From: Clostridium thermobutyricum
GTDB lineage: Bacteria; Bacillota; Clostridia; Ch29
Length of the DNA stretch: 64,000 nucleotides
Assembly: GCA_016842005.1 (NCBI GenBank)
Contig: JAENYD010000003.1
Coordinates: 62,001-126,000 of the forward strand
Direction of reading: 5' to 3'
The notes beneath the pieces are model-generated. The model was not told where the DNA came from, searched no databases, and saw nothing but the letters and a program-made list of their open reading frames with translations. Numbering within the stretch: the stretch's first letter is position 1; every line of letters starts with the position of its first letter. The position numbers and the translations under genes are program-made. Below, piece after piece: positions 56,726 through 58,263 of the stretch.

Positions 56726-57457
56726 ATGAATCCTGTAGCATTTGAGGTATTCGGGATTACTGTAAGATGGTACGGTATAATCATGGCATCAGGGATTCTG
56801 GCGGGATTGCTCCTGGCCCTGCGGGAGACCAAAAGGCTGGGGTTGAACCAAAACATCCTGCTGGACCTGGTTATTTACGCCATACCTGCCGGAGTAATCG
56901 GTGCCCGTATATATTATGTGATTTTCAACTGGGACTACTACGCAGGTGATATATGGAAGATGCTCAATATCCGCGGGGGCGGCATGGCAATCCACGGTAC
57001 CCTTATAGCAGCCGTCCTCACAGGCATAATATATGCCAGGGTGAAAAAGGTCAGTTTCTGGCTGCTGGCGGACATTACCGCTCCCAGTATAATACTGGGC
57101 CAGGCCATCGGCCGGTGGGGAAATTTTGTGAACCAGGAGGCCTATGGCGCTCCCACCGACCTGCCATGGGGGATAATGGTAAACGGAGTAAAGGTTCATC
57201 CTACCTTTTTGTACGAATCCCTGTGGGACCTGGGGGTATTTTTGATATTGATGTGGTATAGAAAGAGAAAGAAGGTTGAGGGAGAGATATTCCTGCTATA
57301 CGGCATCCTGTACTCGGCCGGCAGGTTTTTCATTGAAGGTCTGAGAATGGACAGTCTGATGCTTGGCAATATAAGGGTTGCGCAGCTTATCAGCGTGATA
57401 ATAATAGCATCTGCCCTTTTTCTGATATATTACAGGAGGAAAAAACTGGTCCACTGA
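56726..57457 (+). CDS. lgt: prolipoprotein diacylglyceryl transferase
   Basis: GRWGNFVNQEAYG signature; HPTFLYESLWDLG; 243 aa multi-TM. Confidence 0.94.
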   Translation: MNPVAFEVFGITVRWYGIIMASGILAGLLLALRETKRLGLNQNILLDLVIYAIPAGVIGARIYYVIFNWDYYAGDIWKMLNIRGGGMAIHGTLIAAVLTGIIYARVKKVSFWLLADITAPSIILGQAIGRWGNFVNQEAYGAPTDLPWGIMVNGVKVHPTFLYESLWDLGVFLILMWYRKRKKVEGEIFLLYGILYSAGRFFIEGLRMDSLMLGNIRVAQLISVIIIASALFLIYYRRKKLVH

Positions 57458-57494: not shown

Positions 57495-57720
57495 AGGTTC
57501 TTGATGTTCACAAAGAACACCGGATTAAACCCGGTGTGAGCATGAAGACAATTATCTTAATCCGCTTTTTGGTGACAGGGCTTCATGAAAAGGCAGCGCA
57601 TGCTTTTAATGATTTAGCAAGGCTTAAGTTTCCTCTAAAACATTTTCGCATAAGTCGATTCCCATGAAGCCAATAAATGTTTGTCTGCAATAGGACACCG
57701 GACTAAACCCGGTGTTTTTT
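57495..57720 (+). ncRNA. candidate structured ncRNA / riboswitch-like leader with terminal terminator
   Basis: Hairpin ACACCGG/CCGGTGT at 57517-57537 repeated at 57695-57715 followed by TTTTTT; competing CATGAAG(57541)/CTTCATG(57581)/CATGAAG(57663) pairings. Confidence 0.6.
57695..57720 (+). terminator. intrinsic terminator
   Basis: ACACCGG-actaaac-CCGGTGTTTTTT. Confidence 0.85.
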
Positions 57721-57758
57721 CTGTGAAAAAATTTCTAATCAAGGAAGGATTTTTGGAA

Positions 57759-57805
57759 GTGGTATCGAAATAGTGGATATGTGGTTAAAAGTGGTACAAA
57801 GTGGG
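57759..57805 (+). promoter_or_regulatory. MraZ operator-like GTGG repeat array
   Basis: GTGG at 57759, 57773, 57781, 57791, 57801; last three exactly 10 nt apart (GTGGTTAAAA GTGGTACAAA GTGGGGGATA), upstream of mraZ. Confidence 0.75.
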
Positions 57806-57831: not shown

Positions 57832-58263
57832 ATGTTTTTCGGCGAATTTCAGCATTCCATAGACAGTAAAGGCAGGTTGATAGTCCCTTCGAAATTCAGG
57901 GAAGGCCTGGGCGTAACATTTGTTCTCACCAAGGGCCTTGATGACTGTCTTTTTGCCTATCCCCTGAACGAATGGAAAAATTTTGAAGAAAAACTGAAAA
58001 GTCTTCCAATCAGTTCCAGGGACGCAAGGGCTTTTGTAAGGTATTTCTTTTCCGGAGCTACCGAATGTGAACTGGACAGACAGGGAAGAATACTTTTGCC
58101 GGCCAATCTCAGGGAGCATGCCCGGCTGGAGAAGGATGTGGTTGTAATAGGGGTGTCAACCCGGGTGGAAATCTGGAGCAAGGAGCTGTGGGACAGGTAC
58201 AACAGCGATACCAATATGGGATATGACGCAATAGCGGAGAAGATGGCGGAATTGGGGATATAG
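57832..58263 (+). CDS. mraZ: transcriptional regulator MraZ
   Basis: [27 protein letters not shown]; second repeat [22 protein letters not shown]. Confidence 0.95.

Follow-up and report, generated by a model that had tools for sequence, protein, structure and literature searches.

The window, the whole 64,000-nt stretch of DNA analysed here, carries lgt and mraZ in the same orientation, and the interval between them contains a 154-nt element bordered on both sides by near-identical hairpins. The features of the locus are as follows.

56726..57457, + strand: lgt, prolipoprotein diacylglyceryl transferase (TIGR00544, 222.9 bits against a cut-off of 118.9)
57514..57537, + strand: left copy of the target-site duplication, corresponding to the lgt terminator hairpin AGAACACCGGATTAAACCCGGTGT without the T-run (direct repeat of 57692-57715; the hairpin is single-copy in relatives)
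57538..57691, + strand: the window copy of the MITE, 154 nt, internally deleted (homology to dispersed copies; duplicated hairpins at both borders)
57538..57552, + strand: left terminal repeat GAGCATGAAGACAAT, consensus CAGACTGAAGAAAAA, 10/15 matched
57579..57671, + strand: core palindrome GGCTTCATGAA...CATGAAGCC, shortened here to 93 nt from a core of 203 nt (copy alignment)
57616..57622, + strand: AGCAAGG junction, the site of the missing apical two-hairpin domain (in full-length copies, independent query matches abut or overlap at this point)
57680..57691, + strand: right terminal repeat TTTGTCTGCAAT, consensus TTTGTCTACAACCTG
57692..57715, + strand: right copy of the target-site duplication, AGGACACCGGACTAAACCCGGTGT (direct repeat of 57514-57537)
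57715..57720, + strand: T-run of the lgt terminator, retained only behind the right hairpin copy
57781..57804, + strand: GTGG direct repeats with 10-bp spacing, outside the MITE and untouched by the insertion
57832..58263, + strand: mraZ (TIGR00242, 166.8 bits against a cut-off of 98.35)

The ORF list holds no open reading frame of at least 60 aa within 57538-57691. The GTGG repeats precede mraZ, and we take them to be a probable MraZ operator.

Our searches establish that a dispersed non-coding element (MITE) has one shortened copy at 57538-57691, and that the interval is neither a riboswitch nor a locus-specific ncRNA. A DNA search recovered a second copy in the source genome (G000:C7:144751-144857, 82%) together with 1 to 13 matches in each of the five other genomes of the same family, and a search with the full-length consensus found more copies than the window query had done. 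About 35 copies, from six genomes of this one clostridial family, were curated; a DNA search of 93 genomes from other families of the same class found none. When the named genome collection was scanned with a pattern, 14 loci were returned, 13 of them in MAGs of this clostridial kind. The remaining locus, in the delta-proteobacterial L052, lies in a coding region, looks like a chance match and was rejected. No copy was found in a scan of viral contigs.

The full-length core measures 200-204 nt and extends from GGCTTCATGAA, the inner repeat of the MITE, to TTCATGAAGCC. It contains a three-way junction with two hairpins, and in many full-length copies the apical domain is bordered by AGCAAGG, the motif at which the window copy, with its 93-nt core, has lost that domain. 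The terminal repeats CAGACTGAAGAAAAA / TTTGTCTACAACCTG are matched at 15/15 positions in G3C80 and G3C5b and at 10/15 and 11/15 in the window. The element is thus short, non-coding, multicopy and dispersed, and it possesses the terminal inverted repeats and target-site duplication of a MITE. Relics can be as small as 29 nt. Three of those in G004 (L105, L112 and L118; 58, 29 and 35 nt) retain both core ends, which suggests repeated deletion of the centre of the palindrome.

The sequences bordering the copies proved to be informative. We compared the left and right flanks of the 35 curated copies, using the flanks of other copies as the control, and detected a flanking direct repeat in 12 of them, including that of the window, scoring beyond 99% of mismatched pairs (p<=0.004). 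The duplicated segment varies from site to site, lies at a consistent distance from the core and is usually a hairpin, often with a terminator T-run or an A-run; in the best conserved copy the sequence runs AAAAAAAGTACCGTTTGCTGTAGAAACGATACT / CAGACTGAAGAAAAA ... TTTGTCTACAACCTG / AGTACCGTTTGCTGTAGAAACGGTACTTTTT. At the lgt terminator, the target-site duplication is 24 bp long and consists of the ACACCGG/CCGGTGT hairpins at 57514-57537 and 57692-57715. Some of the MITE duplications are poor hairpins (G4C100), and a clear duplication is absent from 23 of the 35 copies, which we ascribe to decay, deletion or one-sided loss. The two end hairpins had also suggested ends of the IS200/IS605 type, a candidate that was dropped because the end hairpins differ at each locus.

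Orthologous lgt-mraZ intervals provide the empty sites. In G002, G003 and G005, lgt is followed by a single hairpin and T-run (AACACCGGGGTTTCCCCGGTGTTTTT, AACGCCGGATTAAAGCCCGGCGTTTTTTTT and ACGCCGGAAAAAAACCGGCGTTTTTT, respectively); the G002 hairpin carries ACACCGG...CCGGTGT and that of G003 has the CCGGATTAAA loop side of the window. Since these three relatives have only one hairpin, we conclude that the MITE was inserted into a hairpin that is the terminator of lgt. A remnant of the right end of the MITE lies next to the terminator in G001, and G004 possesses a relic with a 58-nt core upstream of mraZ. This last element is in the opposite orientation, and the history of the site is therefore not simple. 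Inversion of the palindromic core, or its insertion in either direction, seems to occur, as in G004 lgt-mraZ and at G003:C81 (L143 1691-1893), where the core runs opposite to the outer arms.

A terminal-motif search revealed that the ends of the MITE, 5'-CAGRYTGWAGA, match those of a larger insertion sequence (IS) in G005, the ends of which (CAGACTGAAGACAAA / CAGTTTGTAGACAAA) closely resemble them. Three copies of this IS are present, each broken at contig ends, and their left and right parts are paired by exact duplications of 30, 24 and 22 bp that comprise whole hairpins. Common ends and common behaviour suggest that the G005 IS, the transposase interior of which is absent from the bin, is a member of IS1182 and the partner of the MITE. 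Similar ends (CAGNCTGTCGAAAAA) are found on IS1182 elements from other parts of the class, in G077 and G031. The IS in G077 is complete, with ends CAGTCTGTCGAAAAAG and a 494-aa IS1182 transposase (NF033551, 411.2 bits against a cut-off of 270), and an exact 30-bp hairpin duplication lies at a distance of 117 nt on both sides of the transposase match. In G031, where IS fragments match NF033551, the first 19 IS copies examined all adjoin a hairpin, and 18 of them score at least 7, as against 6% of control positions. Furthermore, for 20 of 28 left ends there, a right end was identified that shares an exactly duplicated segment of 15-36 bp, and the 784 comparisons yielded no other match; these pairs link contig ends over assembly breaks. 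Taking the IS duplications together, 23 of 24 fold as a hairpin lying no more than 2 nt from both ends, compared with 69 of 480 shuffles (14%).

The 57 ends of a single IS1182 element within the one MAG of G031 represent a terminator-targeting IS at very high copy number, and constitute a good natural data set from which rules of target structure might be drawn. Within the six same-family genomes we found no intact IS1182 transposase with MITE-type ends, and a quick test of the IS1182-type transposases of G002 and G001 revealed no hairpin duplication. Of the G005 IS, only remnants were recovered when 292 genomes of the class were searched at the DNA level. The first partner candidates, identified in same-family genomes by PF13751, were elements without MITE ends and were rejected.

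On the reading that we favour, with a probability of roughly 0.9, 57538-57691 represents a MITE copy that has degenerated and undergone internal deletion, and an IS1182-type DDE transposase mobilised it in trans into the lgt terminator, presumably by joining at the feet of a cruciform. Dispersal, terminal repeats, hairpin duplication, empty sites and a likeness to the behaviour of the IS1182 family can all be read from the DNA; the cruciform intermediate and the geometry of strand transfer are what the junctions would imply. An IS1182-type transposase would act in trans on the MITE, and its target would be the intrinsic terminator of lgt extruded as a cruciform. The transposase would use the 5' foot of each cruciform arm as the point of attachment for the MITE ends, and gap repair would then yield one complete hairpin on each side. 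Because the two points of attack would lie close together at the base of the cruciform, the whole arm, of any length, would be duplicated. The T-run accompanies only the right hairpin, and transcripts of lgt should therefore read through the MITE and end at the right-hand terminator.

DDE transposons usually generate a duplication that is short and of fixed length. The duplications described here range from 15 to 36 bp and track the target hairpin exactly, and so bear the direct imprint of a target choice guided by structure. Correia/NEMIS, ERIC and RUP elements are, like the present MITE, short, non-coding, palindromic, dispersed between genes and known in internally deleted forms. Their duplications, however, are short whereas that of the MITE is as long as a hairpin, and the MITE sequence is unrelated to theirs as far as compared (Rfam without match).

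The closest parallels are to be found in the IS1182 family itself. IS1272/TnSha1 also select their target, a terminator or another stem-loop, by structure rather than sequence, insert at the hairpin foot, and may enter one terminator several times and in both orientations (PMC4923244, PMC5678879). Conversely, IS1272/TnSha1 remove the terminator hairpin that they target without target duplication (PMC4923244), so that IS1272 deletes or replaces the hairpin where the present elements duplicate all of it. The cruciform model of PMC5678879 includes, as a possible variant, attack at the other feet, which would duplicate the stem-loop (Fig 13, 3b-6b); judged by their sequences, the present insertions look like this duplication branch. 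Beyond PMC4923244 and PMC5678879, our literature search, which did not extend to subscription papers or ISfinder, found nothing on hairpin-long duplication. With respect to the family as defined by NF033551, the G077 transposase is a full member, and G077 and G031 share CAG-ended terminal repeats and hairpin duplications; unlike these, the MITE encodes nothing and its resemblance is limited to the terminal repeats.

Hairpin duplication complements the hairpin deletion of IS1272, and explains how elements could spread between genes while the host terminator is left in place. An ordinary-looking, decayed MITE thus reveals an unusual and clean rule, namely that in a branch of IS1182 the target duplication is the terminator hairpin. 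This points to a class of transposons in which the length of the target duplication is that of the hairpin hit.

It is tempting to speculate that the repeated core may function as a structured RNA, such as an sRNA that binds a protein, which the mobile element happens to carry. In the full-length core, 18 of 62 pairs are changed on both sides and 98.3% of cells are paired, a result equalled by none of 500 shuffles. The stems covary while the hairpin loops retain AGGA and N-GGA, and each of the six genomes carries csrA. The consensus fold reaches -77 on the + strand versus -65 on the - strand, and the + strand gave the more stable fold for 19 of the 20 copies. The strand bias is nevertheless weak: the G-U to A-C count of 33:12 on the + fold falls to 13:9 when confined to the pairs shared by the two strands. 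The complementarity can also be explained by selection of the DNA hairpin or by arm-to-arm template switching, and the window copy lacks the GGA loops. On balance, we regard a functional RNA as unlikely. The apical loops in alignment A1 (columns 80-100 and 111-126; e.g. L064 1538-1741) are AGGAC and N-GGA, with GGA almost invariant, and these GGA-loop hairpins resemble CsrA sites, for which they are candidates only. Slightly more doubtful again is the combined proposal, in which a branch of IS1182 elements and MITEs targets the extruded terminator cruciform, with a duplication as long as the hairpin and the terminator kept, and the MITE core is in addition a selected structured RNA whose GGA loops might bind CsrA upon read-through from the upstream gene.

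An earlier note on this DNA had read the interval as a riboswitch or other cis-regulatory RNA of mraZ and the cell-wall cluster, operating through mutually exclusive pairing. Its pairings are all present to within 1-2 bases: CTTCATG (57581-57587), CATGAAG (57541-57547) and CATGAAGCC (57663-57671) were each located, and the end hairpins (57514-57537 and 57692-57715; 24 nt) are identical at 22/24 positions, with T6 after the second. The alternative pairing can accordingly be drawn in the window copy, with a terminator downstream. The region 57495-57722 is more stable than dinucleotide shuffles (z -2.7 on the + strand, -3.6 on the - strand), and chance accounts neither for the pairing of the core nor for the duplicated hairpin. 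What stands is a segment that is discrete and strongly structured, has its end hairpins duplicated and carries a terminator; the switch and the tie to the cell-wall cluster do not stand. The CATGAAG heptamer on which the switch depends occurs in 1 of 35 copies and is private to that of the window, and other copies reside at many unrelated intergenic sites. The end hairpins, taken in the note as part of the structured element, are instead locus-specific duplications outside the MITE. The multibranch fold that it drew is strongly supported by covariation in full-length copies, and its apical half has been lost from the window copy. The suggestion of 6S RNA or another Rfam family found no match above the gathering threshold, nor was any credible match for the region seen at E<=10. 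Conservation at the locus, offered as a check, went against the switch, the intervals of G002, G003 and G005 having the terminator hairpin only; a riboswitch is already contradicted by these empty sites, and we consider it highly improbable. The case advises caution, since a palindromic repeat flanked by duplicated terminators can mimic a riboswitch. That the terminator underwent tandem duplication by chance, around a repeat unrelated to it, is no more credible, although the difference between the two hairpins at 2 of 24 positions might lend the idea some colour; it is already refuted by recurrence of the arrangement at IS1182 insertions and at 11 further copies, where the sequences differ and the distances to the core are consistent.

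Two further repeats were encountered among the MITE loci. A second palindromic repeat (GCCAGGCATCAAGTCATCTGAAG...) has TTCATGAAGCC ends in common with the MITE and a different interior, and occurs in G004 and G001 (L022 1580-1820, L109, L114, L129 and L132). Several MITE relics (L106, L114, L117, L121, L073 and L136) are joined to, or interrupted by, another dispersed repeat, around GGGGACA...GTCCCC with TTCCTTAA.
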